Source: Parasedimentitalea marina
GTDB lineage: Bacteria; Pseudomonadota; Alphaproteobacteria; Rhodobacterales; Rhodobacteraceae
Length of the DNA stretch: 64,000 nt
Direction of reading: 5' to 3'
NCBI RefSeq assembly: GCF_004006175.1
Contig: NZ_CP033220.1
Coordinates: 62,001 to 126,000, forward strand
Made by a program: the position numbers and the translations under genes. This document shows, one piece after another, positions 1 through 54,948 of the stretch; the first letter of the stretch is position 1; every line of letters starts with the position of its first letter. The notes under the pieces were generated by a model. The model was not told where the DNA came from and searched no databases. It saw only the letters and a list, made by a program, of their open reading frames with translations.

Positions 1-2054
1 GTGGAGGCGGGCAGGGCATCCAGGACATCCGGCTCCACCACATTCAGCCGAGGCGCAGAGAGAAAAGAGACCGCAGCAGGAAACAGCCCTGCGGACCCGA
101 ATTGCATGGTGGTGGCTTTCCCCCGTAAATCCTCATGCAGCAGAGCGGCTCCAATCGAACCTGCGGCAGGCTCAGCCTCAAGTTCAGCCCCCAGCACTGC
201 GAGGAAGCGGCTGTCCAGCAGGGCGACGGCTTCGTCCAGCATGAGAAGGTGGTCGAAGGTTGCCGCGCCATGGATCGCGTCAAGATCGCCAAGGGTGCCA
301 GTGTCAGGGGCTATGCAGGTGACCCGCCCCGGAAATAGGGCTTCGGCAATCTCTATGACCCTGGCAATTTCAGCATCCCCAGCATAGCGCGCCGGGCGGA
401 CGAGGACCTGACCAACATGAATGTCCTGTTGCGGTAGCAGCGAAGAAAGCGCCCTTTCAGAGAGTGCTGGATCCGAGGCCTGCAACACCACTGTCAGCGA
501 CAATTCAGTCTCTAACAAGGGGATATAGGGGGCATCTGGCGCCACCGGGAAGAGATTACGGCTATCATTTGGAGATCGATCCGGGTGGCAGACCACAGCC
601 AGATGCAGCGGTGCCAGCCAATGCCCGTCTGCCTGGGCATCATCCAGGGTGGTCGCACCACTGTCTGCGCGCAACAGCAGCGGCTGGTCCGCCTGCGGTC
701 TGTGGGACTGGGGCAGCGCAACGGACCACAGGGGTTTCAGACTGGTTTTGCTGCACACAAGATACGGGCCAGGGGCCTGTGTATAACCTTTTGGCAGCGC
801 CATGCGGCGGGACACCAGGGCCGCCAGGGAGGGCACGCCATGACAGGGAAGCTGTAGGGTCATGCCGGTACCGCGACTATGGCCCTCTTCTGGATCCAGA
901 GACGCCTGCAGCCATTCCAGCCCTGGGGTTTCGGCCTTATCCTGCGGTGCAGAAACTGCAGTCAGCCCCAGGCCAAAGACCGTTTTCAGCCAGCCCCGGA
1001 ATGCGGGAGAGAACAGCCGTTCTGCACCGGTAGCACCGGCTGTGCGCACAGCCAGGCGGGACACCGCAAATCCGGATCGGGCCGGGCCTGCCGCAAGTTC
1101 GCCCAGCAGGGCTTGGCTGATGCGCCAATACTCATCCATCGGGTTGCTGGCCAGACTGTGCGCCGCCCGCTCTACTGCGTGCAGCCCGCCCCGCAACAGC
1201 GAAGGGAAGGTGATCAGCGCATAGCCCTGTGTCACAGAAAAACTGTCCGACAACTCAAGGAGGACCGGCATAAAGGGATTGATCATAGCAACATCAAGGA
1301 ATGCCGGGCCCTTGACGGGTAGACTGGCGCTCCCGACGGCAACAAAACGGAGGGGGGTAAGGGGATCCGCCTGCCAGGCCCGCAGCATTCCTGGCGCCTC
1401 ATCAGAGCTGTCCTCTTGCCCGGTGAAGACAAAGCGCAAGCGACTCTCATCCGCAAACCAGATGTTCTCAATACAGGCGCGCCCCTTCAGGAAGCAGCCA
1501 GCGACCGGGGAACTCACTGCCCCGTCCATAGGCAAGAAGGCTTCCTCTGGGCTGTCCGGAGACTTCAGGACCGGCGCCTGGGCCGTATTCGCCAAGTCGC
1601 GCGCAACCATCTGGACATAGGTCGAGATCGGTCCGCATGTCTTTGTGGCCTCCTCCGGGGAGGCAAAGCGGCCCAGCTCATAAGAGGCGGCAAACAAGGC
1701 GGTATAGCCAACATTATGTGGTCGCTGATCAGCAGGCTGGCCGGACAGGGGCTCCAGCGTTGTCTGGTCAGGCCCGGCAATGATTGGACTGTCTTGCGCA
1801 ACATCGGCCCCGGGAATCGCAAGGACCTCCCCAGACCCGAAATTCTGAGCCGCAGCATGGGGGCTGAGCACTGTGGTTTTCACGGGCTCCGGCTGCGGGG
1901 GCTGCGGGAAACCCGGACGGCCAAGAACGCGGCCGATCAGCAGGTAATGCTGCTGCGGTGACAGGCCAGACAGAACCGCATCGGGGTAGGTTTGACTGTA
2001 CCAGTCCGGGTCGAAACCGGCCAGCGTTGCTAAATGTTCATCTGTGTCAGACAT
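1..2054 (-). CDS. Glycosyltransferase-like protein, partial (C-terminus beyond window)
   Basis: The minus-strand frame is open from the ATG at 2054 to the window edge, giving at least 684 residues with no stop. A GGAG ribosome site lies 5 nt upstream. Residues 14-45 carry the FDPDWYSQTYPDA...HYLLIGRVLGRPG motif that often precedes glycosyltransferase domains in large alphaproteobacterial polysaccharide proteins. The last 150 visible residues look like the start of a GT-A fold (LSLTVVLQASDPALSER, then LLMLDEAVALLDSRFLAVL, then a G-S-I-G-A-A-L strand). The canonical DxD is not evident in the visible part. It follows kdsD by 101 bp on the same strand and could be its operon partner. The family assignment is inference from weak motifs. 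The downstream half, which would decide it, is missing. Confidence 0.6.
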   Translation of the reverse strand, partial: MSDTDEHLATLAGFDPDWYSQTYPDAVLSGLSPQQHYLLIGRVLGRPGFPQPPQPEPVKTTVLSPHAAAQNFGSGEVLAIPGADVAQDSPIIAGPDQTTLEPLSGQPADQRPHNVGYTALFAASYELGRFASPEEATKTCGPISTYVQMVARDLANTAQAPVLKSPDSPEEAFLPMDGAVSSPVAGCFLKGRACIENIWFADESRLRFVFTGQEDSSDEAPGMLRAWQADPLTPLRFVAVGSASLPVKGPAFLDVAMINPFMPVLLELSDSFSVTQGYALITFPSLLRGGLHAVERAAHSLASNPMDEYWRISQALLGELAAGPARSGFAVSRLAVRTAGATGAERLFSPAFRGWLKTVFGLGLTAVSAPQDKAETPGLEWLQASLDPEEGHSRGTGMTLQLPCHGVPSLAALVSRRMALPKGYTQAPGPYLVCSKTSLKPLWSVALPQSHRPQADQPLLLRADSGATTLDDAQADGHWLAPLHLAVVCHPDRSPNDSRNLFPVAPDAPYIPLLETELSLTVVLQASDPALSERALSSLLPQQDIHVGQVLVRPARYAGDAEIARVIEIAEALFPGRVTCIAPDTGTLGDLDAIHGAATFDHLLMLDEAVALLDSRFLAVLGAELEAEPAAGSIGAALLHEDLRGKATTMQFGSAGLFPAAVSFLSAPRLNVVEPDVLDALPAS

Positions 2055-2155: not shown

Positions 2156-3133
2156 TCACACAAGACCAGCTTTGAGGCAATCATGTATGCGCAAAAGTCC
2201 GATCGGTGCATTGTCTGCATCAACGACGATCAGAGCATTGATCTTGCTTTCGTTCATCAGTCCCAAAGCTTGGGCTGCCATCATCTCCGGGCCAACGGTT
2301 TTAGGGTTAGACGTCGCAACTTCACAGGCCGTGAGGTCCGTAATCCTGTCGATATGACGGCGCAGATCCCCGTCCGAGATCACCCCTGCGACCTTCCCGT
2401 CTGCAACCACGCAGGCAATCCCAAAACCAGCTTCACTCATCTGGATCAGTACCTCTGTCATCGGCAGATCTGGCGCCACGGCTGCGAGAGCGCTGGTCTC
2501 ATGCATCAATTGGCGCACCTGGGCGAGCTGCAGACCCAGCTTCCCCCCAGGATGATTGTTGCGGAACTCTTCTGGTTTAAAGGCGCGTTGCTCCATCAAA
2601 GCCACCGCCAGAGCATCCCCCAGGGCCAAAGTCAGGGTTGTCGACGTGGTTGGCGCCATCCCGATTGCACAGGCTTCCGGTGCGCCCGGAAGGAGCAGAC
2701 GCAGGTCGGCCTGCCGCATGAGCGTGCTGTCCGAGATGCTGGAAATGCCAATCAGGGGAATGTTGAACCGACGTGTATAAGTAATCAGATCACTCAACTC
2801 GCGGGTTTCCCCAGAGTTTGAGATCAGGATGCAGACATCATCCTTGGTGATCATGCCCAGATCGCCGTGGCTTGCCTCGGAGGCATGCACAAAATAGGCC
2901 GTTGTCCCGGTAGAGGCCAAGGTGGCTGCCAGCTTGCGGCCAATATGGCCTGACTTCCCGATGCCGGACACAATCACGCGCCCCCGGCTGGCCAGAATGC
3001 AGCGCACAGCAGGTGCAAGATCCGCTGGCAGATTGTCTCTCATACAGGCAATGGCGGTGCTTTCGATGTCCAGCACCCGGGCGGCTGTCCGCAAAATTCC
3101 CGAGGCATCCTGTGCCATCTTATCCTGAGGCAT
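2156..3133 (-). CDS. kdsD: Arabinose-5-phosphate isomerase (KdsD/KpsF family)
   Basis: The 325-residue protein has the family layout: a SIS sugar-isomerase domain at about 45-175 with the motif VSGIGKSGHIGRK (55-67) and the EASHGDLGMI segment, followed by a tandem CBS pair at about 205-325. The family converts D-ribulose 5-phosphate to D-arabinose 5-phosphate, the first step to Kdo, in the cytoplasm. Kdo is needed for LPS and for the lipid linker of ABC-exported (KpsMTE-type) capsules. Such an exporter lies at 14.4-17.2 kb, so this is probably the capsule-specific KpsF-like paralogue. The ATG at 3133 has GGAGA 7 nt upstream. Length is normal and the frame is intact. Confidence 0.93.
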   Translation of the reverse strand: MPQDKMAQDASGILRTAARVLDIESTAIACMRDNLPADLAPAVRCILASRGRVIVSGIGKSGHIGRKLAATLASTGTTAYFVHASEASHGDLGMITKDDVCILISNSGETRELSDLITYTRRFNIPLIGISSISDSTLMRQADLRLLLPGAPEACAIGMAPTTSTTLTLALGDALAVALMEQRAFKPEEFRNNHPGGKLGLQLAQVRQLMHETSALAAVAPDLPMTEVLIQMSEAGFGIACVVADGKVAGVISDGDLRRHIDRITDLTACEVATSNPKTVGPEMMAAQALGLMNESKINALIVVDADNAPIGLLRIHDCLKAGLV

Positions 3134-3381: not shown

Positions 3382-4103
3382 ATGACGCATTTTACAGAGA
3401 AGACATTGAAGATTTTTGTTGGGTGGGATTCCGGGAAGATATTGCCTGGCAGGTCTGTCGCCATTCCATCACCCGCCACACCCGCGGTGATGTGGAGATT
3501 TACCCACTCAAACAGCCAACGCTACGAGAACTGGGCCTTTATACAAGGACCGCAGACAAAGCCACGACCGAATTCTCGATCACCCGCTTCCTGACGCCTT
3601 ATCTTGCGGCGCATGATGGCTGGTCAATCTTTGTCGACTGCGACTTTCTGCTCTCCGGTGATGTGACCAAATTGCTCGATATCGTGTCCAGCGATAAGGC
3701 CCTTTATTGCGTGCAGCACGATTACACACCGGCCAATGCTGTCAAGATGGACGGTAAAGAGCAAACAACCTACCCACGCAAGAACTGGTCCTCCTTCATG
3801 GCCTTCAATGGGGCTCATCCCAAGGTCAAGGCGCTGACACCGGCTGTGGTCAATTCCTCCAGTCCCGCCTACCTGCACCGGTTCAACTGGCTGGAAGACG
3901 AAGATATGGGCGCTTTGGATCTGGAATGGAACTTCCTCGAAGGGGAATATGCAAAGCCGGATCAAATGCCCATGTGCGTGCATTACACCAATGGCGGCCC
4001 TTGGTTTGAGAATTGGCAAGACGTTGATTTTGGAAACGAGTGGCGCACAGAACGCGATATGTATCTCGCCAGCACTCAGGCTTCGGAGCAGGCTGCCGAA
4101 TAG
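3382..4103 (+). CDS. GT-A-fold glycosyltransferase-like protein (one frameshift)
   Basis: A protein of about 240 residues. The N-terminus MTHFTEKTLKIFVGWDS and the rest (REDIAWQVCRHSI onward) sit in two frames. They join if one C is restored near 3432 (tccggg to tcccggg). FVDCDFLLSGD at about residue 85 resembles the DxD metal/nucleotide-sugar motif of GT8-like enzymes, and the FVGWD start fits their first strand. The ATG at 3382 has AAGGG 9 nt upstream. It leads a plus-strand run of sugar-modifying genes, with the next start 52 bp on. Donor and acceptor are unknown. Glycosyltransferase is the best reading but the exact family is not certain. Confidence 0.65.
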
Positions 4104-4155
4104 GCCCCGCCTGCCTCCAGAACAGCCCGCAGACCCAGCCGGAGGATCGCCGCCG

Positions 4156-5040
4156 ATGATTGACTATGACCGTTTGAAACAGCAATTTTCCGCCGCTCAG
4201 CAGACCTGGGCTGCGGCTGACCCGTTTCCCTATTGCACCTTCGAGGGCTTTCTCGCGCTCCCCCGGGCGCAGCAGATTGCCGATGATTTCCCCGCCGTCA
4301 TGGCCAAGATCAGCAAACCTCTGAAACGCCATCACGATGTCGAACAGAAGCGCGGCGTGCCGGATCTCAGCCTGATGTCCGAGACCCAGCAGCAGTTTTT
4401 CGACCAGATCCTGGGCCCCGAATTCATCGCCTTTCTGGAACAGCTCACCGGGATTTCACCGCTGTATCCGGATCCGGATCTGGCCGGCGGCGGATTGCAT
4501 GAAATCTACACCGGCGGGTTTCTCAACACCCATGCCGATTTCAACTTTCACCCCAAGACCGGCAAGCACCGCTGCCTGAACCTGATCCTCTATCTCAATG
4601 CCGACTGGCAGGAGGACTGGCACGGCCAGCTTGAACTGTGGTCCGAAAACCTGGACGGCGAACCGGTACGGGTTGCACCGACACTGAACACTGCGGCGCT
4701 GTTTCGCACCACCGAAACCTCGTGGCATGGTCACCCCAAGCCGCTGGCCTGCCCCGAGCACGTCAGCCGCCGCTCGCTGGCGGTCTATTACTACACCGAC
4801 TGGCCCGAGGGGCTGGAGCAGCGCGCCAAGACCACCTATGTGCTGACCCCGGATCAGCAACAGGACCTGCGTCAGGACCTGCTGGCGGGCTGGGATCAGA
4901 TCGCCGATGCCGATGCCGCCTGCCGACTGGCCCGGCGCTATCAGCCCCGCCATGTGCGCCAGACCTACGAGGCGCTGCTGGCCGAAAAGGCGTCGACGGC
5001 CGGGTCCGCTGCCGCCTCTGACACAGACCAACCCGGGTAG
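4156..5040 (+). CDS. 2-oxoglutarate/Fe(II) oxygenase family protein
   Basis: The intact 294-residue protein shows the double-stranded beta-helix signature of Fe(II)/2OG dioxygenases: HAD at 126-128 (His and Asp ligands), a GQLELW strand at 158-163, a distal His at 191 (TSWHGHP) and an Arg at 205 ([10 protein letters not shown]) placed to bind the 2OG carboxylate. It resembles the prolyl-4-hydroxylase-like 2OG enzymes often found in glycan clusters. Those enzymes hydroxylate a substrate using O2 and 2OG. The neighbours suggest a sugar, glycolipid or small peptide substrate, but this is inference. GGAGG lies 10 nt before the ATG. A longer ATG in the same frame at 3949 is rejected because it sits inside the upstream gene. 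Confidence 0.8.
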
Positions 5041-5050
5041 GATTATACGA

Positions 5051-6186
5051 ATGACACGCATTCTGGTCACCGGCGGCGCCGGTTTCATTGGCTCTCATCT
5101 GGTGCCCGCGCTGCTGGCCCAGGGCCACGAGCTGCGCATTCTGGACAGCCTCAGCCCGCAAATTCACGGCGCGGTGCCTGAAGGCACCGGCTGGCTCAAT
5201 GCCACCCCGGGCTGGAGTTCCAGCGCGGCAGCGTCACGGTACGCGAAGACCTGGCCCGCGCCATCGACGGCATCGAGGCCATCGTGCACCTGGCCTCGGA
5301 AACCGGCACCGGGCAATCGATGTATGAAATCAGCCGCTATGCCCAGGAAAACGTGCAGGGCACCGCCGAGCTGATGCAGGTGCTGGCCACCACCCCCGGC
5401 CATGCGGTGCAGCGGGTGCTGCTGGCCTCATCCCGGTCGGTCTATGGCGAAGGCGCCTATCTGCGCGCCTCGGACGGTCAGCGTCTGACCCCGGCGGCGC
5501 GCAGTGCCGCCGCCCTGAAGAGCCACCAGTGGGATCCCACCTGCCCGGATAGCGGCGAAGTGCTGCAGCTGGTTGCCACCCGCGAAGAGGACCGCACCGC
5601 GCCGTCGTCGATCTATGCGGCGACCAAGCTGATGCAAGAGGATCTTTTGCGCATCACCTGTGACAGCACCGGCATTGGCTACGGCATCCTGCGGTTGCAG
5701 AATGTCTACGGCGAAGGCCAGTCGCTGAAAAACCCCTATACCGGCATCCTGTCGATCTTCTCGACCAAGATCCGCCGCGGGCTGGAACTGCCGATTTTTG
5801 AGGACGGGCTGGAAAGCCGTGACTTCGTGCATGTCTCGGATGTGGCGGCGGCCTTTGCAGCGGCGCTGGCGCGCCCCAAGGCGCCCGATACGGTGATCAA
5901 TGTCGGCTCGGGCCGCGCCACCTCGGTGCTTGAGATGGCCACGGCGCTGGCGCGCGCCTTTGACGCCACCCCCAACACCCGGATCACCGGCGAGTACCGG
6001 CTGGGCGACATCCGCCACAACGCCGCCGACATCACCCGCCTGCATGATGTTCTGGGCCTGGAGCCGCAAATCGACCTGCAACAGGGTCTGAACCGCTTTG
6101 CCACCTGGGTGCAGGACCAGCCGCTGCCCGAAGACCTGCTGGCCCAGGCCAATGCCGAACTCAAAGCCCGGAATATGATGGGATGA
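5051..6186 (+). CDS. NAD-dependent nucleotide-sugar epimerase/dehydratase (SDR), one frameshift
   Basis: An extended SDR of about 378 residues. It has the Rossmann start [16 protein letters not shown], a SSRSVYGEG strand with the catalytic Ser/Thr region, YAATK as the catalytic YxxxK, and the [11 protein letters not shown] and DFVHVSDVA blocks of sugar epimerases. The first 54 residues are in another frame. One missing base near 5210 (ggctggag for ggcctggag) restores [15 protein letters not shown]. The length and the insert around [13 protein letters not shown] resemble dTDP-L-rhamnose 4-epimerase-like proteins. With rmlCBDA on the same replicon this suggests a modified deoxysugar such as a 6-deoxytalose, but the substrate is not proven. 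Confidence 0.82.
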
Positions 6187-6236
6187 GATTGAACGCCGCA
6201 ACACCAGCGATCAAACACGGATAAAGGTTAAACCCA

Positions 6237-7754
6237 ATGTCACTTTTTCAATTCTCTTCGCAAGAAGCCTCCCAAAACATTCGAAAAAATCGTAGCAGCC
6301 GCTGGCCGGATGGACGGCGTAAAAACGAAACCCGACTGACTGGTTTTGCCGATGTAACGGTCACCCCCACCTTCAGCTTTGATACGGCTGACAAGATTCT
6401 GACAATCGGCTCCTGTTTTGCACGGGAGATTGAAAAACGTCTGGCCTCGCTGGGATTTACACTGCCTGCTCTCGACATCGAGATTCCGCAGGAAGAACGG
6501 ATCCGGCAGACCGCCAATAGCATCCTAAACAAATACACTGTTCATTCGATGGAAAACGAAATCCGCTGGGGATTTGAAGACGTCGGCATCCCCTTTCAAG
6601 ATTTTTTTCTACGCGGAGGAGAAGACACCTGGCATGACGCGCAGATGGTGCCCAACCTGCCCCCCGTCAGTTTTGAACGGGTAACCGAGCGACGCCGGAT
6701 GGTGTCAAAAATGATGTCTCGGCTCCCAGAATGCCGGATTGTCGTCATTACCCTTGGCCTTGTTGAAGCCTGGTACGACAGCAAGACAGAGATGTTCTTG
6801 AATGCCATGCCTCCTGCCTTCGCCATAAAGGAAGAACCCCAGCGCTTTCAGCTGAGAACGTTGGATCTTGATGAAATCGTTGCCTCCCTGGAGCGAATCC
6901 ATGGGTTGATCACCCGGTACGGGCATCCTGACTTCAAAATGCTGATCACGGTATCTCCGGTTCCGTTCAAGGCCACAATGACCGGAACTGATGCACTGAT
7001 CGCCAACACCTACGGCAAAAGTGTGCAACGGGCCGCCGCCGAAGTGTTCAATGCACGCCATGACAACGTCAATTACTTCCCCAGCTATGAAATGGTGACC
7101 CTGTCCGAGCGGGCGGCGGCATATGAGGCCGACAACATTCACGTCACACGGCCCATGGTCGAACACATTATGGCAACTGTCGTAGCGGCATACGCCCCCA
7201 GCGTCAGCCTGTCTAAAGCTGAGGAGCCGCGGCCAGAAAATGATCGAGACCGGGAAAAGTCCAACACCCGCAGTGGCCTGCTGTTGGAAGCCAAACAAAA
7301 TCTATCCGATGGGAATTTCGAATCTGCCATTACCAATCTGAGCAGTCTGCTCTATCGCTTTTCCAACAAGCTGCGCCCCGCACAGCTTGCCAACGCTCAT
7401 CTGAAATTGGGTGTTGCCCTGTTTCGGACCAAACAAGCGAATGAAGCTGTCCAGCAACTAAAGATAGCAAAAAAACTGAACCCAGAGCACCCCAACACCA
7501 CATATTATCTTGGCTTAGGCTTGGCGCGTCTCAAGCAGGACGATAGAGCCCTGGATATGTTCCGTGAAGCCCTACGCCTGGACAGCTCGGTTCCGGATCA
7601 CCATTGGCGCCTGGGCAAACAGCTGATGAACATGCAGCAAGAAGATGAAGCCCTCACACATCTCAGAAATGCTCTCGCTCTGGCTCCCGACCACAAGGGG
7701 GCAAAGGCAGCACTGGATGAGCATGCACGAAATGCACCCAACCCCACATCTTAA
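6237..7754 (+). CDS. GSCFA-domain protein with C-terminal TPR repeats
   Basis: A 505-residue protein. The GSCFA family signature TIGSCFAREIE spans 56-66. The domain continues to about 310, with IVVITLGLVEAWYD and the TVSPVPFKAT strand typical of this SGNH-like fold. Residues about 340-500 form three or four TPR units (LKLGVALFRTKQANEAVQQL; YYLGLGLARLKQDDRALDMF; HWRLGKQLMNMQQEDEALTH). GSCFA proteins are poorly characterised and recur beside polysaccharide genes. An esterase or acyl-transfer role is inferred from the SGNH relationship. AAAGG lies upstream of the ATG. Its codon use is less GC-biased than its neighbours, so it may have a separate origin. Confidence 0.85.
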   Translation: MSLFQFSSQEASQNIRKNRSSRWPDGRRKNETRLTGFADVTVTPTFSFDTADKILTIGSCFAREIEKRLASLGFTLPALDIEIPQEERIRQTANSILNKYTVHSMENEIRWGFEDVGIPFQDFFLRGGEDTWHDAQMVPNLPPVSFERVTERRRMVSKMMSRLPECRIVVITLGLVEAWYDSKTEMFLNAMPPAFAIKEEPQRFQLRTLDLDEIVASLERIHGLITRYGHPDFKMLITVSPVPFKATMTGTDALIANTYGKSVQRAAAEVFNARHDNVNYFPSYEMVTLSERAAAYEADNIHVTRPMVEHIMATVVAAYAPSVSLSKAEEPRPENDRDREKSNTRSGLLLEAKQNLSDGNFESAITNLSSLLYRFSNKLRPAQLANAHLKLGVALFRTKQANEAVQQLKIAKKLNPEHPNTTYYLGLGLARLKQDDRALDMFREALRLDSSVPDHHWRLGKQLMNMQQEDEALTHLRNALALAPDHKGAKAALDEHARNAPNPTS

Positions 7755-7792
7755 AGATTGCGGACAAGCCCAGGGACGGCGAGTGAAGACGA

Positions 7793-7942
7793 ATGACATT
7801 GCAAACAGGGGCGCGTGAAATGGCAGCCACAGAAAAGGCTCAGATCAATGACGGCAGTAGCGTCATGAAGGCGACTGCCTGTGCTGATGCCGCCACCGCC
7901 CGTACAACAACGGCCCGAACCACGATGGGACATGTGACATGA
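7793..7942 (+). CDS. Possible 49-residue small ORF coupled to the sulfotransferase
   Basis: The reading frame ATG 7793 to TGA 7942 overlaps the next start by ATGA (7939-7942), as in translationally coupled genes, and fills an otherwise empty 184-bp gap. The peptide is Ala/Thr rich (residues 25-45 contain KATACADAATARTTTARTT) with no signal or known motif. It may be a real coupling leader, a decayed gene tail, or chance. Confidence 0.25.
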   Translation: MTLQTGAREMAATEKAQINDGSSVMKATACADAATARTTTARTTMGHVT

Positions 7943-8715
7943 CCACTGCTGAAACCGCGACCGGGGTGATCTGGCTGGCCTCCTACCCCAAATCCGGCAA
8001 CACCTGGCTGCGGGAAATCCTGACCAATATCCTCTCGCCCAAGGGCACCAAACGCGGCGAGGCCATCCCCTCGTTCCAGAAGGACTGGCCCGGCGATATC
8101 CCGCACTACCAGATCCGTGGTCAGGCGGTGCATCTGATGAAGACCCACCTGCACCCCGGGCATGCGCGGATGGACAATTGCCCCTTGCCCACCGCCGGCG
8201 CCATCACCATCCGCCGCCATCCGTTGGATGTGCTGCTGTCGGCGCTGAACTATGCCAAGATCAAGGAAAAGGCGCAGGTCTTTCTCGATCAGGAAATCAA
8301 GCCGGTGGAACAGATCATCGCCGATGGCGAGTTTTCCCATTACATCGACCAGTTTCGCGATACCGACGGGTTTTCCTGGTTCGCCGGACCAGCGGGCGAA
8401 CTGTCACTGCACCGGCAGCGCTGGCAGGCGGCCTGCATCGATCTGGCCTATCATGAAATCTGCTATGAAGACCTGTTTGCGGATCCCGAGGCCGGGATCC
8501 GCGCCCTGCTGGACTTTCTGCAGATCGATGCCAGCGCCGAGGAGATCTCCAGAATCTATGAACGCGCGGACCGGCGCACAGCGCAGAACGGCACCTTCTT
8601 CTGGAAACGGCGCGCCTATAATTTCCAGGACCTGCTGCCGCCCGAGCTGATTGCCGAATTCCACGAAAAATACAGCCCCCAGCTGACCGCGCTTGACTAC
8701 CCCACTGCGCCCTGA
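7939..8715 (+). CDS. Sulfotransferase family protein
   Basis: An intact 258-residue cytosolic-type sulfotransferase. The 5'-phosphosulfate-binding loop is YPKSGNTWLR (16-25). The 3'-phosphate-binding segment is IRRHPLDVLLSALNYAK (about 91-107), with a conserved Arg and Ser, and FFWKRRAYNFQDLL near the end resembles the family's C-terminal PAPS contact. The family moves a sulfuryl group from PAPS to a hydroxyl. Set among glycan genes, the acceptor is probably an exopolysaccharide or glycolipid. No PAPS synthesis genes are in the window. It is first of three consecutive sulfotransferase-type genes. Confidence 0.88.
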   Translation: MTTAETATGVIWLASYPKSGNTWLREILTNILSPKGTKRGEAIPSFQKDWPGDIPHYQIRGQAVHLMKTHLHPGHARMDNCPLPTAGAITIRRHPLDVLLSALNYAKIKEKAQVFLDQEIKPVEQIIADGEFSHYIDQFRDTDGFSWFAGPAGELSLHRQRWQAACIDLAYHEICYEDLFADPEAGIRALLDFLQIDASAEEISRIYERADRRTAQNGTFFWKRRAYNFQDLLPPELIAEFHEKYSPQLTALDYPTAP

Positions 8716-8757
8716 AACAGGCTAGGCCGAGTGCCCGACAACAAGGACCAAACCAAG

Positions 8758-9391
8758 ATGAGCAATGCACAGCCCAACCCTGGCTATACCGTGCTGAACG
8801 ACGCCCCTGCGGCGAGGTTGCAACTATCGGCGCCACCGGGCTGGGCCGTTCGGGCACCACCATGCTGGCGCGCACCCTGTTTGAAATCGGCCTGCCGATG
8901 TGGGATCGGCTGACGCCAAGAACCTGCGAAGACAAGGTGATCCAGAAGCAGCTCAAGGCACGCGATCATGACGCCTTTGCCGACCTGTGCAGCAGCCGCA
9001 GTGCCCAGACCCCGCGCTGGGGTTCAAATGTCCGGCCCTGCGCAACCAGATGCAGGGCTGTGTGCCGCTGATGCAGGGCGCCCGCTTTGTGGTGGTGTTC
9101 CGCGACATGCTGGCGGTGGCCCTGCGCAACAACCTGTCGATGGGGCGCGAACAGCTCGAGGCGCTGGAGCGGGCCGAACAGGGCTATCGCCGACTGATAA
9201 AGGAGATCCAGCGGCTCGAAGCGCCGGTGCTGCTGCTGTCTTATGAAAAGGCCCTGCAGCACCCAGAGACCCTGGTCACCACCCTGGCCGATTTCAGTGG
9301 CCTGCCGGTCAGCCCCGAACGCGCCGCCGAGATCGCCGCCAGCACCATCCGCAATGCCGATCCGCGCTATCAGGGCACCCAGGCAGGGTAG
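8758..9391 (+). CDS. Sulfotransferase-like P-loop protein (two frameshifts)
   Basis: Three frames combine into about 211 residues. The start is MSNAQPNPGYTVLND. The PAPS loop GATGLGRSGTTMLART follows after restoring one base near 8812. The remainder, FKCPALRNQ to the end, follows after one missing T near 9024. RFVVVFRDMLAVALRNN resembles the 3'-phosphate-binding region, although the usual Arg-Asp-Pro is RDM here. LLLSYEKALQHPETLV is the typical second-half block of bacterial sulfotransferases. The total length with two restored bases is a whole number of codons. It is short for the family and divergent from its neighbours, so the activity is uncertain. Confidence 0.68.
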
Positions 9392-9424
9392 CCCCCGAAC
9401 CGGAGAGAGAGTTTCCGAGGCCCC

Positions 9425-10360
9425 ATGACACAGTTTGTCCTGCATATCGGCACCCACAAGACCGGCAGCTCCCTGCTGCAGCAGTTCCTGCTCAAGAACC
9501 GCGATGCCCTGCGGGCGCAGGGCATCGACATCCCCACCTTTGCCGGTCGCAGTGGCGCCAAGGTGCACACACACATCGCCAACTTCTTTCGCGGGTTGGA
9601 CGACCCCTGTCACGACGAGGTCGCCGCCCTGATCGCCAGGGGCATCTCGGAGCTGCCGCACTGCCTGATCTCGTCTGAAAACCTGTATTGGTGCAATACC
9701 CGTGACATGGTTGCTGGAGTCCGCGCAGTCTTTCCCGTCGACACCCGGATCATCTGTCATTTCCGCACCCCGGCCAGCCATGCGGTCTCGATGTGGAAGC
9801 AGCTGCTAAAGGGCAAACGCAAAAGCAACAGCCTGCCGGACTATCTGGCAACCGCCACCGAAGAGCTGAATCAGGGGATCTCGTATTATTGCTATGACCC
9901 GTCGATGGCCCATTGGCGCAACTTCTTTGCGGATACCACCGCCGCGCTTTATACCCCGCAGGACAATCAGGCCTTTGTGCGCGCCTTCTTTGAAACCTGC
10001 CGCCTGCCGCTGCAGATCAGCGACACGCTGATCTATCCCAAGGCGGTGAATGTCTCGGTGTCGGATGAATGCTCGGTCCTGATGCTGCGGCTGAACCAAA
10101 TGCTGGCGGCGGGGCGGCTCAGCACCGAGACGCGGGACAGATTCACCGCCAAGATCCTCAAGAATGCGCCTGCCTTCTCCGAGCAGGTCGCCCCTCATGC
10201 GACCTGGGAAACAGTGGACCTTAGCGCTTTCAATCAGGCCTTTGCCAAGGACAGCCCACAGCTAGCTGCCACCCTGCCCGCACCAGAACCCGAAATTGCC
10301 TTTCCCACCGACCTGCGGCTGAGCGACGAAGAGATCAAGAGGATTTGCGGTTCGCCTTGA
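9425..10360 (+). CDS. Sulfotransferase-like protein
   Basis: An intact 311-residue protein. HIGTHKTGSSLLQQFL (7-22) is the phosphate loop seen in bacterial carbohydrate sulfotransferase-like proteins. IICHFRTPASHAVSMWKQL (about 109-127) matches the 3'-phosphate-binding segment with conserved Arg and Ser. It follows the previous gene by 33 bp, with GGAGAG in the gap, and ends the plus-strand modification run. It differs enough from the 7939 and 8758 genes that the three are probably not recent duplicates and may act on different acceptors. Confidence 0.78.
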   Translation: MTQFVLHIGTHKTGSSLLQQFLLKNRDALRAQGIDIPTFAGRSGAKVHTHIANFFRGLDDPCHDEVAALIARGISELPHCLISSENLYWCNTRDMVAGVRAVFPVDTRIICHFRTPASHAVSMWKQLLKGKRKSNSLPDYLATATEELNQGISYYCYDPSMAHWRNFFADTTAALYTPQDNQAFVRAFFETCRLPLQISDTLIYPKAVNVSVSDECSVLMLRLNQMLAAGRLSTETRDRFTAKILKNAPAFSEQVAPHATWETVDLSAFNQAFAKDSPQLAATLPAPEPEIAFPTDLRLSDEEIKRICGSP

Positions 10361-13623: not shown

Positions 13624-14384
13624 GTGGAAAAGCAGGACGCAACAGTTGAATTTCAACCCATGGTCAACTTCGTTGTTGCCGGGGCTCAAAATCTGGAACA
13701 ACCGCATTGCGCAGTTTCCTGAGCCAACATCCGGACATCGGACTGGTTGACGGCGGCAGTGAAACCCATTTCTTTAACAAGCACAGCGCAGCAGCGGCCC
13801 GCAAAGACTATGACCTGTATCATGCCATGTACACACCGCAGGCCCTAAGCCTCTGCACCGGTGATGTCACTCCCATTTATCTCTATCGCGCGGACTGCCT
13901 GCCTGCGATCCAGCAGTACAACCCGGATATGAAACTCATCGTTCTTCTGCGCAATCCGGTCGACAGAGCCTATTCCCATTGGGGTATGGAACGGAAAAAA
14001 AAGAAAGAGAGTCGCGGTTTTCTACCGGCACTGCTCCATGAAGCAAGATATCTGCGAACCCATGGGCAGCATCCGGTCTATTCCTATATTCAGCGCAGTT
14101 TTTATGATGCTCAGATTGCTCGGCTACACAGGCTGTTTCCGGCAGAAAACTGCCTGATCCTGCGCAATGAAGACCTGCGCAACGCGCACAGCGCAACCCT
14201 CAGCAAGGTCTTCAGATTCCTTGGCGTTTCAGAAATGATTCAGCCAGCCCCTGCAGCGGTCAGGACCGGAAGCTACGCGCCCATGCATCCTGTGATACGG
14301 CGCGGGCTGACTGCGGTTTTCCGCAAGGATATCCGCAGGCTGGAAGCCCGCCTCAATTGGGATCTGTCTGACTGGTGCCGCTAA
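13624..14384 (+). CDS. Sulfotransferase family protein (one frameshift)
   Basis: About 253 residues. NFVVAGAQKSGTTALRSFL is the PAPS-binding loop. It is seen only after restoring one A in a four-A run near 13690, which joins two frames. LIVLLRNPVDRAYSHW is the 3'-phosphate-binding segment (RNPxxRAYS), and SETHFFNKHSAA and DVTPIYLYR match NDST/heparan-type bacterial sulfotransferases. I place the start at the GTG at 13624, with AGAGG 9 nt upstream. An ATG at 13660 is the alternative. The gene is convergent with the KpsM permease gene, 28 bp away, and may sulfate the exported polysaccharide. Confidence 0.83.
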
Positions 14385-14412: not shown

Positions 14413-15215
14413 TCATCTGAACAGAAAGTCCTGATGATAGCGCCGCAAAAGGAACAGGCCCAAGATACAAGTGATGCCCGAAACCAAGAATATATAGATC
14501 GGTGAAATATAGTTGGGTGAGTAAAACGGATAAAACCCCTCCCGCATCTGTCCCACCACATGGATGAGGGGGTTGTACCAAAGGAAGTCTGAATAGGGAC
14601 GCGGCACATCATCAAATACAAAAAAGATGGCCGAGATCAGGAAGAGCGGGCGCGTTAGGATAGACCAGATGGTTTGCCAGAGCGGATAGGCCAGAACCAG
14701 GAAGGCATTGAGGCTGCCAAAACCAGCCGCAAGGGACAGGGCCAGCACATAGGCAAAGACAATACTGGTGAAATCAAACGTGGTGCTCGCATCGGTTACC
14801 AGAAGAATAGCGCCGACAACAATACTATGGACGATCAGATGCGTCAGAGCATTCAGCAGGTAACGCGCAAGCAGCGCATCCAGAAAAGTCACCCGCGGAT
14901 ATTCTAGCAAACTGCGCGAAAACGGAATTGTCTGGGCCATCTTGTTGGTGATGTCATTGAACATCGTAAAAGGCAGCATCCCAGAGGCGTAAAACAGCGC
15001 AAAACTGGTCCCCATAGGAGGGCTACGGAAGCCCGCCGAGAAAATTGCCACCAGCAGGGCAATCCCTGCCGCGGGCTCAAGAACCGCCCAAAGATACCCC
15101 CGGGTGAGCGCCCGTATGTGGTCGACATTTCACGCAGCATCAGGGCCGTGATGGCACGCCCGCTGGACAGGCGCGGCTGAACAGGCCGCAGGCGTACTTG
15201 GCTCAAATCACTCAT
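14413..15215 (-). CDS. kpsM: Capsule polysaccharide ABC transporter permease, KpsM-like (one frameshift)
   Basis: About 267 residues and six predicted membrane segments (for example LIVHSIVVGAILLV, IVFAYVLALSLAAGFG, ITCILGLFLLRRY). The N-terminal cytoplasmic stretch RAITALMLREMSTTYGRSPGGYLWAVLEP is the hallmark of the ABC-2 polysaccharide permeases. One G is missing from a run near 15100, which splits residues 1-40 from the rest. With the KpsT-like ATPase (16562) it would move a lipid-linked glycan across the inner membrane. It is divergent from kpsE/kpsT across a 93-bp gap that should hold promoters for both directions. Confidence 0.9.
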
Positions 15216-15308: not shown

Positions 15309-16562
15309 ATGCCTGCTACCAATACAAAAACTGATCCGGCAGCACCGGCCCCAGTCAAACCTGTCGACGATGGTGCCCCACCAAAGTCCCCGACCGGTAC
15401 CGCCGTCCATTAAGGTGGAAACGGTGCAACACATCCGTCCTCCAGCCGCAGCAAGCCGTACCCGCGGGCGGCACCGTGGCATTGCCCTCAGCTTTCTGCT
15501 CGCCGTGGTTTTACCCTTCGCGGTGGCCACTTGGTATCTCTATGAACGCGCCGCTGACCAATATGCCTCTTATCTGGGATTTTCAGTCAGGACCGAAGAA
15601 AGCAGTTCAGCCATCGAACTTTGGGCGGAATTACCGAACTTTCCGGCTCCAGTTCTTCTGACACGGACATCCTGTTTGACTACCTGAACAGCCAGCAAAT
15701 GGTACGAAAGGTCGATGAAAAGGCGGATCTGCGCGGGATCTGGTCTCGGGTCAGCACGCGCCAGGATCCGGTTTTGCTTATGATCCCAACGGCAGCATCG
15801 AGGATCTTCTGGACCATTGGAAACGTATGGTGCAAATCACCTACGACAGCGGCTCAGGACTTCTGAACCTGCGCATCCTGGCCTTTGATCCGGCAGAGGC
15901 GCGCAAGATCGCCAGCGTCATTCTCGAAGAATCCGACACCATGATCAATAATCTCTCAGCCATCGCGCGTGAGGATGCGATCAAATACGCCCGCGATGAG
16001 CTTGAAACAGCCGTAGAGCGCCTGAAAGAAGCCCGGCGCGCCATGACCTCCTACCGCAACCGGACCCAGATCGTTGATCCCTCGATCGATACGCAGAACC
16101 AAATGGGGTTGCTCACCATCTTGCAGCAACAATTGGCTGAGGCGCTGATCGAACAGGACCTTCTCATGGACAATGCGCGCGAGGGGATCCACGGGTCATT
16201 CAGGGCGGCGCCGCGTGGTGGTCATCGAACAGCGCATCGCCGCTGAACGGCGCAAGCTGGGGCTGGGGGGCAGTGCTGCCGGGGCCACAGTCTTTGCCAA
16301 TCTTGTTGGCGAATACGAAGGGCTTCTGGTGGATCGGGAATTTTCCGAGCAGGCCTATACCGTGGCCTGGGCCGCTTATGATGCAGCTCAGGCAGAGGCC
16401 CGCAAACAAAGCCGCTATCTGGCAGCCCATATCCGCCCAACCTTGGCGGAGCGTGCGGAATATCCTGACCGCCCCATCCTGCTTCTTGTGATTGGGGTCT
16501 TTTTGCTGTTTGTCTGGCTTCTGCTGGTGCTGATCTACTACAGCCTGCGCGACCGTCGCTGA
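15309..16562 (+). CDS. kpsE: Capsule polysaccharide export inner-membrane protein, KpsE-like (several frameshifts)
   Basis: About 418 residues. Order: a Pro/Ala-rich N-terminus; a first membrane segment, GIALSFLLAVVLPFAVATWYLY; a periplasmic region with the coiled-coil DELETAVERLKEARRAM; EGDPRVIQ...IEQRIAAERRKL; and a second membrane segment, ILLLVIGVFLLFVWLLLVLIYYSL, just before the C-terminus. This is the KpsE/RkpR/BexC layout (PCP-3 class), bridging the ABC exporter to the outer-membrane channel. One-base losses near 15408, 15620, 15775 and twice near 16190 fragment it. Each break is bridged by conserved residues. It overlaps kpsT by one base. Confidence 0.85.
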
Positions 16563-17229
16563 TGATTTATCTGGATCGGCTCAGGAAAACTGTGCCCTTA
16601 CGCGGCAGTGAAAAGTCATCATTGATGATATCACGGCGACCTTTCCCACCGGGGCAAGCGTCGCGCTTCTGGGCCGTAATGGTGCCGGCAAAAGCACTCT
16701 GCTCAAAATTATCGCGGGCACCCTGCGTCCAACCTCGGGGCAGGTGCTCACGGATGGATCAATCTCATATCCAGTCGGCTTTGCCGGGTCTTTCCATGGC
16801 GACCTGACCGGCGTGCAGAACACCCGTTTTGTGGCCCGGCTTTATGGTGTCGACACGGATGAGCTGGTAGATTTTGTACAGGATTTTGCCGAACTGGGAC
16901 GGCATTTCCACATGCCCTTGCGCACCTACTCTTCAGGAATGAAAGCGCGGCTGTCCTTCGGTGTCTCCATGGGGATCCGCTTTGACACCTACCTGATCGA
17001 CGAGGTGACCTCGGTCGGGGATGGGGCTTTCAAGCGCAAGAGCGTCGAGCTTTTTGAAGCCCGGCTGGAGAACGCAAGCGCCGTGGTAGTGACCCATTCT
17101 CCGCCCATGGTCCGACGCATGTGCAACTACGGAGTGGTGCTGGAAGAGGGTAAGGTCGTGGCCTATAGCGACATCGAGGAAGCCCTGGAACATCACGATC
17201 GCAACCTGAAAGAAGCCAGTTCCCAATAG
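16562..17229 (+). CDS. kpsT: Capsule polysaccharide ABC transporter ATP-binding protein, KpsT-like (one frameshift)
   Basis: About 222 residues. MIYLDRLRKTVPLRGSEK is joined to VIIDDITATFPTG by restoring one A near 16613. Walker A is GRNGAGKST, the signature region is TYSSGMKARLSFG, and Walker B is TYLIDEVTSVGD. The protein is short, with no C-terminal glycan-binding domain, which places it with KpsT/BexA rather than Wzt. It energises KpsM. The TGATG junction with kpsE indicates translational coupling. Confidence 0.9.
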
Positions 17230-27819: not shown

Positions 27820-28431
27820 TCAGGAGCGCCGAAAGATATTGCCGATGGTCTGAAACACCAGATCAAGATCGAAGCACATGCTTTGGTGCCGCTGATAGAT
27901 CAGATCCAGGCGCGCCTTGGCCGGAATGCAGATCCGGGAATAGACCGCATCGGTTGCCTTGGCACTGGCGCAGCGCCGCAGCAGCGCCGCCTCATGTTTG
28001 TGATAGACGATCGAGCCCAGGCCGGTGACACCGGGGCGCGATTTCAGCACCGCCTCGTAGATCTCCGGATAGGCTTCGACATATTGACGCAGTGGCGGAC
28101 GCGGCCCCACAAAGGAGAGATCGCCCCTGAGGATATTCCACAGCTGTGGGAATTCATCCAACCGCTTAGAGCGCAGCCAGGCGCCGGTCTTGGTGATGCG
28201 CGCCGTCTTGTCGCCGCCCGAGACCCCGGTATCGCCCTCCACCACCGTCATCGTCCTGAGTTTCCACAAGCGGAAGCCGCGGGTTGGCGTGGTCATGCGT
28301 TCTGCCAGGTAGAACACCGGCCGACCCTCTTTCAGCAACAGCCACAAAAGCAGAGCCAGCAGAATTGGCCCCAGAATAACGATCAGCAGCGTGACGAAGA
28401 AAAGATCAAAAAATCGTTTGCGCCAGGTCAT
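27820..28431 (-). CDS. Priming sugar-phosphate transferase (WbaP/WcaJ/ExoY-like)
   Basis: 203 residues, intact. One membrane helix (FFVTLLIVILGPILLALLLWLLL, 10-32), then the bacterial sugar transferase domain: FRLWKLRTMTV, RITKTGAWLRSKRLDEFPQLWNILRGDLSFVGPRPP and SRPGVTGLGSI. These contain the Asp-Glu catalytic pair and the PRP motif. It starts polysaccharide repeat synthesis by moving a sugar-1-phosphate to undecaprenyl phosphate at the inner membrane. The short, single-helix form fits ExoY/PglC-size enzymes. It overlaps the next upstream gene by ATGA. Confidence 0.93.
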   Translation of the reverse strand: MTWRKRFFDLFFVTLLIVILGPILLALLLWLLLKEGRPVFYLAERMTTPTRGFRLWKLRTMTVVEGDTGVSGGDKTARITKTGAWLRSKRLDEFPQLWNILRGDLSFVGPRPPLRQYVEAYPEIYEAVLKSRPGVTGLGSIVYHKHEAALLRRCASAKATDAVYSRICIPAKARLDLIYQRHQSMCFDLDLVFQTIGNIFRRS

Positions 28432-29482: not shown

Positions 29483-30598
29483 ATGCGCCTAGTGATTCCC
29501 CTGCTCGCCCTTGTTGGCCTATCTCTGGTTACGGCGGCCTGCGGGCGCCTGCCCGGCGGCGCCCCTGCCAGCGAAGAGATTGTCAAACAATCCGACGCAG
29601 AGGATGCCGGTTTTTCCCTCTACCAGGTGACTCGCGCCTTTCTGCCCACGGTGGCGCATTGGCCCGCCACCGGCAAACAGGAACGTTTACCTTGGATCCG
29701 CGCCAGCCATGGCGCCAAGACCCAGATCATTCAGCCCGGTGACATGCTGACCCTGCGCATTTGGGACAGCAGCGACAATTCTCTGCTCACCTCGATCGAT
29801 CAGAAGGATGTACAACTGCAGGATGTTCGGGTGGCGGCCAATGGCACCATCTTCATGCCCTATGTAGGCAATGTGAATGTGCTGGGGCTGACCCCGGATC
29901 TGGCCCGCGAAAACCTACAGGTTGAACTGGAAGCCATTGTTCCCTCTGCCCAGCTGCAGCTGGACGTCAAAGAAGGGCGCAACAACTCGGTCGACCTGGT
30001 CTCAGGCGTCGCCCGGCCGGGCACCTATCCGATGCCCAACCGGAACTATTCGGTGATGGGCCTGATTTCAGCGGGCGGCGGCATCAGCGCCGGCCTCAAC
30101 AATCCGCAGATCCGCCTGGTGCGCGGCCACCAGATCTACGGCACCTCGGTGGACAAGCTGCTGGACGATCCACAGCTCGACACTCTGCTGCGCGGCGACG
30201 ACCGGGTCTTTGTCGAGGAGGATGAACGCTATTTCCTGTCCTTTGGTGCCACCGGCAAAGAAGATCTGCACATCTTCACCAAGGATGAGATGTCAGCGAT
30301 GGACGCGATATCCATCTCTGGCGGGTTTCAAGACAGCCGTGCGGATCCGCAGGGATTGCTGGTTCTGCGTGAGTACCCCCCTAGCGCCATCGCGCCGGGA
30401 GAGCGCGGCCCGCGTCAGCAACGGGTGGTTTTCAGTCTTGATCTGACATCAGCGGACGGGTTGTTTTCGGCGCGCAGCTTCCAGATCAACCCAGGTGACT
30501 TGCTGATCGCAACGGAATCGCCCATCAATGATGCGCTGACCATCTCCAACCTGATCGGAAACTTCTTTGGTGTCTTCAGCCAGGCCGGAGTTCTTTAA
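29483..30598 (+). CDS. wza: Polysaccharide export outer-membrane lipoprotein, Wza-like
   Basis: 371 residues from the ATG at 29483. Lipoprotein signal LLALVGLSLVTAAC, Cys at 20. The polysaccharide-export domain covers about 85-180 (IQPGDMLTLRIWDSSDNSLLT; VAANGTIFMPYVGNVNVLGLTP). Two SLBB-type repeats follow (VDLVSGVARPGTYPMPNRNYSVMGLISAGGG; YFLSFGATGKEDLHIFTKDEMSAMDAISISGGF). It forms the periplasmic and outer-membrane channel for capsule or EPS. It is divergent from the epimerase and priming-transferase unit. An alternative in-frame ATG at 29462 lacks the clear GAAAGAG site seen before 29483. Confidence 0.92.
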   Translation: MRLVIPLLALVGLSLVTAACGRLPGGAPASEEIVKQSDAEDAGFSLYQVTRAFLPTVAHWPATGKQERLPWIRASHGAKTQIIQPGDMLTLRIWDSSDNSLLTSIDQKDVQLQDVRVAANGTIFMPYVGNVNVLGLTPDLARENLQVELEAIVPSAQLQLDVKEGRNNSVDLVSGVARPGTYPMPNRNYSVMGLISAGGGISAGLNNPQIRLVRGHQIYGTSVDKLLDDPQLDTLLRGDDRVFVEEDERYFLSFGATGKEDLHIFTKDEMSAMDAISISGGFQDSRADPQGLLVLREYPPSAIAPGERGPRQQRVVFSLDLTSADGLFSARSFQINPGDLLIATESPINDALTISNLIGNFFGVFSQAGVL

Positions 30599-36992: not shown

Positions 36993-37556
36993 GTGGAAAT
37001 TACACAGACCCCCCTGCCAGGCGTTCTATTGCTGGAACCCCGTCGTTTTGGCGATGCCCGTGGATTTTTCAGTGAAAGCTGGAACCGGAAAAACCTTGAA
37101 GGTCATGGCATCACTCTGGATTTTGTGCAGGACAATCACTCGATGTCGGCGCAGGTGGGCACCCTGCGTGGATTGCATTTCCAATCCCCGCCCCACGCCC
37201 AGGCAAAACTGGTGCGCTGCGGTCGCGGCCGGCTTTTTGATGTGGCGGTTGATATCCGCAAAGGCTCCCCCACCTATGGGCACTGGTTCGGCGCTGAGCT
37301 GAGCTTTGAGAACGGCTTACAGCTGCTGATCCCCGCAGGGTTCTTACACGGGTTCATTACCCGCGAGCCTGATACAGAAATCATCTATAAATGCACCGAT
37401 TACTACGCCCCCGACTGCGATGGCGCGGTGGCCTGGGACAGTTGCGGTATCGACTGGGACTTTGAAGGCCCCCCCCTACTGAGCGAAAAAGATGCGGTGG
37501 CCACTGCGCTGGCCAACTTCGATAGCCCCTTCACCTGGGACGGAGAGATGGCATGA
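36993..37556 (+). CDS. rmlC: dTDP-4-dehydrorhamnose 3,5-epimerase
   Basis: 187 residues starting at the GTG at 36993, with GGAG 6 nt upstream. RmlC cupin features are all present: [25 protein letters not shown] with the catalytic His62, and [26 protein letters not shown]. It epimerises C3 and C5 of the keto sugar to the L-lyxo form. First gene of the rml operon, with rmlB starting in its stop codon (ATGA). Length is normal and the frame is intact. Confidence 0.96.
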
Positions 37557-38604
37557 AAATCCTGGTAACTGGCGGTGCCGGCTTTATTGGCTCGGCGGTG
37601 GTCCGGCTGGCGATCGCCCGCGGCCATGAGGTGGTGAACCTGGATGCCCTGACCTATGCAGCCTGTTTGGATAATGTTTCGCAAGCCGCCCAAAGCCCCA
37701 ATTATGCCTTTGTAGAGTCTGATATTCGGGATCGCAGCGCCCTGGACCGGGTCTTTTCTGCCCATGCACCGGATGTGGTGATGCATCTGGCCGCCGAAAG
37801 CCATGTGGACCGCTCCATTGATGGGCCGGGTGATTTTATCGAGACCAATATCACCGGCACTTTCAATATGCTGGAGGCTGCCAGAAAGTACTGGGTTGAG
37901 GCTGGCCGCCCGGCGGCCTTCCGCTTTCATCATATTTCGACAGATGAGGTCTACGGCTCGCTGCCAAATGATCCTGAGGTCTTGTTCACTGAAGACACCG
38001 CTTATGATCCGCGGTCGCCCTATTCCGCCAGCAAAGCCGCCTCTGACCATCTGGTGCGCGCCTGGGCCGAAACCTATGGGCTGCCGATCCTGCTGACCAA
38101 TTGTTCCAACAATTATGGCCCCTTTCACTTTCCCGAAAAGCTGGTGCCGGTGGTGATCCTGAATGCGCTGGCGGGCAAGGACCTGCCGATCTATGGCGAT
38201 GGCTCAAACATTCGCGACTGGCTTTATGTGGAAGATCACGCTGATGCGCTGCTGACGGTGCTGACCAGGGGGCACTGGGGCGCACCTATAACATTGGTGG
38301 CGAGAATGAGCGCACGAACCTCGAGTTGGTGCAGACCCTTTGTGCGATCCTCGATCAGAAACGCCCGCGCGATGATGGCACCTCTTACGCGGACCAGATC
38401 ACCTATGTCACGGACCGCCCCGGTCATGATGCGCGCTATGCCATCGATCCCTCACGCATCCGGGACGAGCTGGGCTGGCGCCCCTCTGTCACGGTTGAGC
38501 AGGGCCTGGAGCGCACCGTGCAATGGTACCTGGACAACGAGACCTGGTGGCGCGCCCTGCAGGCCCGCGACGGGGTGGGACAGCGTCTGGGAACTGGCGG
38601 GTGA
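37553..38604 (+). CDS. rmlB: dTDP-glucose 4,6-dehydratase (one frameshift)
   Basis: About 350 residues. [19 protein letters not shown] binds [14 protein letters not shown] supplies the Thr-Asp-Glu catalytic triplet, and [15 protein letters not shown] the Tyr/Lys pair. [17 protein letters not shown] and the C-terminal [22 protein letters not shown] are RmlB signatures. One missing G near 38272 shifts the last 110 residues ([19 protein letters not shown]). The restored length is a whole number of codons. It makes dTDP-4-keto-6-deoxyglucose from dTDP-glucose. Confidence 0.95.
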
Positions 38605-38674
38605 TGACGACGGCCAGGCGAGCAATCATCGGACGAGCAATCATACAGCACCCTGCGCCCGAAGGGCGCCTGCG

Positions 38675-54938: not shown

Positions 54939-54948
54939 GGACCTGCTG

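Follow-up and report, generated by a model that had tools for sequence, protein, structure and literature searches.

This report concerns a run of seven genes at positions 3382-10360 of a 64,000-nucleotide window of Parasedimentitalea marina DNA (positions 62001-126000 of contig C2, NZ_CP033220.1, in a genome of five contigs). An earlier note had described them as tightly spaced plus-strand genes and had inferred that they make and sulfate, and perhaps hydroxylate or acylate, one unusual surface glycan. The layout was as described, with intergenic gaps of 52, 10, 50, 184, 16 and 33 bp. Contig C2 carries its sequence twice, and where a frame is broken in the window its open counterpart in the second copy is given. 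The genes are as follows, with family cut-offs in brackets after the scores.

3382..4103, plus strand: glycosyltransferase-like protein (GT) of 240 amino acids (aa) with a DCD motif; broken by a frameshift in the window, its open form in the second copy being L031:4041-4763.
4156..5040, plus strand: Fe(II)/2-oxoglutarate (2OG) oxygenase; PF13640, 59 bits (27).
5051..6186, plus strand: NAD-dependent epimerase/dehydratase of the short-chain dehydrogenase/reductase (SDR) type; PF01370 in both frame pieces, one indel in each copy.
6237..7754, plus strand: GSCFA (SGNH-like) domain with C-terminal TPRs (GSCFA-TPR); PF08885, 156 bits (25).
7939..8715, plus strand: sulfotransferase 1 (ST1), Sulfotransfer_1; 54.8 bits (22).
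8731..9391, plus strand: sulfotransferase 2 (ST2), Sulfotransfer_3; frameshifted in the window, 36.3 bits (27) on the second copy, open at L031:9385-10047.
9425..10360, plus strand: probable sulfotransferase 3 (ST3); PF13469, 18.1 bits (27).

Two of the three sulfotransferases claimed in the earlier note, ST1 and ST2, exceed their Pfam cut-offs; ST3 is retained as probable only, because its score falls below the cut-off. Some homologs of the GT carry the label 'glycosyltransferase' in public records, and no Pfam or NCBIfam model matched the protein at E 0.01; its predicted structure (pLDDT, the predicted local distance difference test, of 43.9) was set aside and not used. The 2OG oxygenase possesses exactly the ligand set that had been claimed, namely the HxD...H iron ligands H126, D128 and H191 and the 2OG-binding R205, all conserved in 20 of 20 homologs (19 loci from the host family and one from Sinorhizobium meliloti). 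A search for a relation to the Kdo 3-hydroxylase KdoO returned 27 PDB sequences at E values up to 10, none of them named KdoO, in a PDB copy that presumably contains a KdoO structure. For the epimerase, the best chains among solved structures carry generic epimerase/dehydratase names, and the listed NCBIfam equivalogs scored below their cut-offs; a dTDP-rhamnose 4-epimerase is one candidate function.

The fusion of a GSCFA domain to TPRs was also upheld. All 11 aligned sequences share residues S59, G174, D299 and H302, which fits a predicted SGNH-like enzyme of Ser-Asp-His type; S59, D299 and H302 are the residues that we take to belong to the SGNH motif blocks, and no Block III Asn was assigned. 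In the predicted structure (mean pLDDT 83.5) S59 immediately follows a strand. The Foldseek matches listed (50 of 1,761) were TPR-type or designed helical proteins and are uninformative for the SGNH part. Membrane-like segments were found in none of the run proteins tested, the epimerase being represented by its C-terminal part. The G+C content of the run is mosaic (GT and GSCFA-TPR 53%, 2OG oxygenase 62%, ST2 65%, epimerase 66%), as if it had been pieced together from different sources.

The broken frames are explained by the state of the contig. C2 measures 163,293 bp and consists of head-to-tail copies of 81,635 and 81,658 bp that align at 99.64% identity with 38 mismatches and 217 gap openings; 191 of the gap openings are single-base and 190 lie inside homopolymers of at least three bases, which account for 17.6% of bases. 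In our reading, C2 is one 81.6-kb circular plasmid that was assembled twice over from error-prone reads and left unresolved. Single-base frameshifts interrupt the GT, epimerase and ST2 genes in the window; in the second copy GT and ST2 are open and the 2OG oxygenase and GSCFA-TPR, both open in the window, are broken. The epimerase has one indel per copy, at different positions. Because the copies differ mostly by homopolymer indels, we take the frameshifts in the run to be sequencing or assembly errors rather than pseudogenes, true frameshifts being ruled out by these copy-to-copy differences. For a frameshift anywhere in the window, the second copy is the needed comparison. Downstream of the run, an M10/RTX calcium-binding protein (11079-13393) has a repeat part that, judged by eye, seems frame-shifted alike in both copies; unlike those of the run genes, this shared shift is either real or a systematic error.

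The earlier note had proposed looking for the same gene order in other genomes, and a core of it does recur. We define this core as the GT, epimerase and GSCFA-TPR together with two large proteins encoded upstream (one of 506 aa, one of a 429/349-aa type). It was found, whole or in part, at six loci in other Alpha-, Beta- and Gammaproteobacteria (L004-L007, L038 and L039), three of which include genes for 3-deoxy-D-manno-octulosonic acid (Kdo). A scan of genome contigs with GSCFA-TPR, sensitive to close relatives only, gave 14 relatives, four full-length (L004-L007) and ten over the GSCFA part; among plasmids, 43 records matched, and one of them (Novosphingobium P6W, L039) does so over at least 80% of the protein. 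Each of these five loci has two or more other core genes besides its GSCFA-TPR. In L006, from a Sulfuritalea metagenome-assembled genome (JAIPCR010000032), both large upstream proteins, the GT, epimerase, GSCFA-TPR and KpsF (KdsD) are encoded within one 15-kb stretch. That locus differs in having an SGNH-like protein with no Pfam match, a methyltransferase, a second GSCFA protein, kdsA and kdsB, with 2OG oxygenase and sulfotransferases unmatched.

The two Novosphingobium loci (L007 and L039) encode KpsE-M-T before GSCFA-TPR and KdsA after it, along with 506-aa and 429-aa type proteins and the GT. L004, a contig of 9.8 kb, encodes the GT, the epimerase and GSCFA-TPR; L005 combines GSCFA-TPR with large proteins, its GT and epimerase being unmatched; and the Pararhizobium locus L038 has the GT, relatives of all the large upstream proteins and an epimerase 68% identical over the C-terminal 300 aa, with GSCFA-TPR unmatched in the stretch. 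The GT and epimerase genes are adjacent in all three other loci that have both (L004, L006 and L038). The 506-aa protein is rare, being found in 2 of 72,556 plasmid records and in 3 of 385 genomes of the class, our own included, the other two matching at 25-27% over part of its length. The conservation did not extend to the whole run: the 2OG oxygenase and ST1-3 were matched in none of the six core loci, in a search at E values up to 1e-3 over stretches 9.8-25.5 kb long. Matches confined to the GSCFA part (27-36%) are also present on plasmids from Antarctobacter, Loktanella, Thalassovita, Octadecabacter and Gemmobacter, among others; in Gemmobacter the same plasmid has an rml operon. At the level of DNA (3100-11000), none of 26 matching plasmid records among the 72,556 searched covers more than 80% of the length, the best being a Pararhizobium plasmid at 18%. 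This mixture of tailoring enzymes, two of them poorly understood, in which a 2OG oxygenase and sulfotransferases accompany the core, was not found elsewhere in the collections searched, and the literature searched yielded no description of this gene set; the general kind of locus is known.

Taken singly, the GT occurs in 7 of 295 genomes of the host family and 44 of 385 of the class, and the 2OG oxygenase in 22 of the 295 (own genome included throughout), with 29-39% identity in the 19 loci compared. In this family sample, leaving our own genome aside, the six genomes with the GT and the 21 with the oxygenase do not overlap, and none of the 19 family oxygenase loci, with flanks of only about 1.5 kb, has a relative of the window sulfotransferases at E 1e-3. 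Kdo genes lie near the GT at 8 of 12 GT loci in a first set of 13 (L005 being without the GT), a set biased in that several loci entered it via GSCFA-TPR. In the family sample the count is 4 of 6, L085 being included only through a 51% match to the WaaA-type protein of L082. In the class it is 3 of 29 stretches (within about 8 kb), one by a weak 28% match, against none of nine control stretches; the 29 stretches come from 29 of the 43 other matched genomes, and several are cut by contig ends. Given the bias of the first set, the manner in which L085 was counted and the low figure for the class, the Kdo association is a trait of some core loci and family relatives, not of the whole GT family. 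The contrast between family loci and class stretches also weakens the candidacy of the GT as a dedicated Kdo enzyme. In a search for fixed neighbours at 41 GT loci, the widest cluster besides GT-sized frames was a TPR protein, present at 13 loci, whose C-terminal part matches GT9 (Pfam run on one member).

What surrounds the run on the plasmid is listed below; percentages refer to pPGA1_65, the 65-kb biofilm plasmid of Phaeobacter inhibens DSM 17395 (NC_018288.1), unless stated otherwise.

1..2054, minus strand: N-terminal part of a 782-aa protein, running off the left end of the window; no Pfam match, weak relatives in L007, L038 and L039.
2156..3133, minus strand: KpsF/KdsD-type arabinose-5-phosphate isomerase (SIS and CBS), divergent from the run; TIGR00393, 278 bits (203.7).
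13707..14384, plus strand: fourth sulfotransferase, located after the run and ahead of the exporter genes.
14413..15215, minus strand: KpsM-type ATP-binding cassette (ABC) permease; frameshifted in the window, second copy open (L037:13068-13871).
15310..16559, plus strand: KpsE-type export protein; frameshifted in the window, second copy open (L037:13965-15227), from which the start was mapped.
16559..17226, plus strand: KpsT-type ABC ATPase; second copy open (L037:15227-15895); 61%.
27823..28431: sugar transferase, in the same block as the Yjb genes and an export protein (22594-30595).
29483..30595, plus strand: polysaccharide export protein, belonging to the backbone that the plasmids share; PF02563, 51.6 bits (28); 78%.
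36993..40853, plus strand: rml (rhamnose) genes of the shared biofilm-plasmid backbone; 65-87%.
47723..48631, plus strand: RepA replication initiator, PF10134; 85-88% to RepA of Phaeobacter/Leisingera plasmids among the matches listed (30 of 1,179 records).

The kpsF gene is 248 bp upstream of the run and kpsM, kpsE and kpsT are 4-7 kb downstream, all three exporter genes being open in the second copy. There KpsT scores 59.8 bits against PF00005 (25) and KpsM 40.7 bits against PF01061 (26.9), with 90 bits against the NCBIfam KpsM equivalog, whose cut-off is 300. KpsE matches nearly the full TIGR01010 model (E 7.5e-59), but at 199.6 bits against a cut-off of 437.5; the homology is clear and the subfamily putative. 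Other components were absent from the plasmid and located on contig C1, which we regard as the chromosome: PF05159 (KpsS/KpsC-type) genes, APS kinase and KdsA, together with a second KpsF (58% identity). Two of these Capsule_synth (PF05159) genes flank a Poly_export gene at C1:2,988,658-2,992,816. The genes supplying 3'-phosphoadenosine 5'-phosphosulfate (PAPS) and most Kdo genes are chromosomal rather than plasmid-borne. Near C1:3,207,566 (L158) a KpsE-like gene (23%) directly precedes kdsA, suggesting a second, chromosomal capsule locus.

Several further features of the window deserve mention. Another sulfotransferase is encoded at 32485-33348. The protein at 41759-42823 has no Pfam match at E 1e-4, with 31-32% relatives near the GT in the Novosphingobium loci L007 and L039. 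A type II secretion set (secretin, T2SSE, T2SSF, T2SSJ, T2SSK and an A24 prepilin peptidase) occupies 50276-61838, and none of it is listed in the pPGA1_65 annotation.

We consider it likely that the seven genes supply the serotype-like, polymer-specific portion of a Kps-type capsule locus, served by an ABC exporter and carried by a roseobacter biofilm plasmid. This reading draws on the observed gene content, catalytic residues and plasmid context (KpsMTE on the same plasmid, KpsF immediately upstream, KpsS/KpsC-type and Poly_export genes on the chromosome), on the recurrence of the core, on the Kdo genes in L006, L007 and L039, on the lack of membrane-like segments in the proteins tested, and on the contrast with pPGA1_65, which has counterparts of the exporter, rml, Yjb and Rep genes but none of the run beyond a 25% epimerase match. 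The lowered attachment of P. inhibens after rml deletion also speaks for it. It further accords with the sulfated capsules of Cobetia and Vibrio, in which, according to the available parts of two reports (PMC11641403, PMC11766843), sulfotransferase genes next to those for Kps export and rhamnose signal a sulfated product. The earlier reading, that the genes make and sulfate a glycan, is supported in outline, as a cytoplasmic gene set inside a Kps-type export locus.

The sequence of reactions, with its substrates and product, is inferred as follows. In the cytoplasm the chain would be built by the GT and the large upstream proteins (C2:57,865-64,054) from sugars that include the product of the epimerase, and KpsF would feed Kdo synthesis together with the chromosomal KdsA. 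Capsules exported by ABC transporters are completed in the cytoplasm; therefore sulfation, and any hydroxylation or ester chemistry, would take place there, before KpsMTE exports the chain. Two or three PAPS-dependent sulfotransferases would sulfate it, with PAPS from the chromosome. The 2OG oxygenase would probably hydroxylate one carbon of the chain, and GSCFA-TPR may esterify or de-esterify it, its TPRs holding it to the synthase complex. For the lipid-Kdo linker and for passage through the outer membrane, the cell could draw on the chromosomal KpsS/KpsC-type and polysaccharide-export (KpsD-like) proteins. Among these modifications, sulfation is likely, given two clear sulfotransferases. 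Hydroxylation of the glycan is suggested by the enzyme family and the position of the gene between GT and epimerase, and acyl transfer by the catalytic residues of GSCFA-TPR.

Several points weigh against this interpretation. The plasmid lacks KpsS/KpsC-type genes, the tie between the GT and Kdo is not specific, ST3 lies under its family cut-off, and the structure of the polymer is only predicted. Moreover, L004, L005 and L038 have neither a Kdo gene nor a close Kps exporter in the stretches compared (L038 shows a 29% KpsT match only), and our confidence is slightly lowered because these are three of the six homologous loci. Finally, the sugar transferase and Yjb genes of the plasmid fit another polysaccharide route.

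That the run serves this other route, so that its product is a rhamnose-type biofilm exopolysaccharide (EPS) and not a Kps capsule, we regard as unlikely. The block at 22594-30595 is indeed on the plasmid and 53-79% identical to that of pPGA1_65, and the rml operon of P. inhibens is needed for full attachment, its deletion lowering attachment according to the available part of one report (PMC11481893); P. inhibens EPS is also treated in PMC10984933, likewise available in part. Nevertheless, KpsF and KpsM/E/T flank the run more closely than this block does, the core is accompanied by Kdo genes in three of six homologous loci and by Kps export in two of these, and Yjb genes occur on other plasmids outside the 26 records that match the run DNA.

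Decoration of lipopolysaccharide (LPS), whether core or O-antigen, is improbable as the function of the run. In its favour are the Kdo genes within about 10 kb of the GT at four of the six other family loci, among them L082, where the neighbour is a WaaA-type Kdo transferase (PF04413, 167 bits), and L085, through its match to that neighbour only. In those stretches (12-20 kb, E 1e-10), however, GSCFA-TPR and the large upstream proteins were unmatched, and here KpsM/E/T lie beside the run. Least credible is a chance cluster of unrelated plasmid cargo, some of it already decayed to pseudogenes: the mosaic G+C, the three genes frameshifted in the window and the position of the 2OG oxygenase and sulfotransferases outside the recurring core would suit it, but the frameshifts differ between copies and lie mostly in homopolymers, the spacing is tight and co-directional, and ligands and catalytic residues are conserved.

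Returning to the Kps-type capsule, a bolder version may be entertained, although we think it rather unlikely. The core could represent a capsule type that has not been catalogued and is distributed over Alpha-, Beta- and Gammaproteobacteria, its GSCFA-TPR acting as a cytoplasmic O-acyltransferase on the growing chain. In the present locus a 2OG oxygenase, inserted between GT and epimerase, would hydroxylate a sugar (Kdo or a deoxysugar) and so create the site that is later sulfated. GSCFA-TPR would then be the first GSCFA protein with an assignable role. The unexplained oxygenase and the uncharacterised GSCFA family are the points of most interest. An oxygenase acting on a capsule sugar alongside several sulfotransferases would widen the known routes to sulfated marine polysaccharides. 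The capsule reading would furthermore offer a plasmid-borne test case for GSCFA, which the available part of a 2022 review places among five SGNH families in which no member has a known function (PMC9487903).

Among known systems, the gene clusters for sulfated capsules in Vibrio sp. KMM 8419 and in Cobetia marina KMM 1449 (PMC11641403, PMC11766843) resemble our locus, as far as the available text of these reports extends, in their rml operon, kps ABC export genes and sulfotransferases, the Vibrio cluster also including yjbFGH. They differ in that their PAPS genes are inside the clusters, whereas here these are chromosomal; the word oxygenase is absent from both main texts, and GSCFA from the Cobetia text, the sole one checked for it. 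In S. meliloti, genes for a Kdo-homopolymer K-antigen include kdsB2, smb20804 and smb20805 in the available part of one report (PMC5539429). A plasmid of that species (L079) encodes a 39% GT homolog, not equated with the named K-antigen genes, beside an annotated CMP-Kdo synthetase and KpsF. The epimerase, GSCFA-TPR, 2OG oxygenase and large upstream proteins were unmatched in the 16.7 kb compared there, though an NDP-sugar epimerase is annotated.

The comparison with pPGA1_65, made at E 1e-8 with 43 of the 49 proteins annotated on it and no more than three pieces for any one, places the run on a known plasmid type. The plasmid has the homologous RepA replicon and the rml operon that mark roseobacter biofilm plasmids, and its RepA matches to Phaeobacter and Leisingera plasmids point to Roseobacteraceae as the host family. 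RepA is 83%, ParA 87% and UDP-glucose dehydrogenase 83-91% identical, the Yjb/export block is conserved as given above and KpsM/E/T at 42-61%; rml, UDP-glucose dehydrogenase, ParAB, RepA and a GT4 together span 63-91%. From about -4,800 to +11,600 of the window, only a 25% epimerase match was found with these proteins; the run therefore sits in a variable stretch of the plasmid. In its own glycan genes pPGA1_65 differs, having glf, gmd, fcl, other GTs and one sulfotransferase. The seven genes, which the earlier note had put forward as the strongest candidate in the window for an undescribed system, are not supported as such: they belong to a larger variable module (about C2:57,865-72,360) on a biofilm plasmid whose export genes are common to P. 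inhibens. If this reading is right, the two plasmids present a shared biofilm-plasmid frame that carries exchangeable capsule modules.

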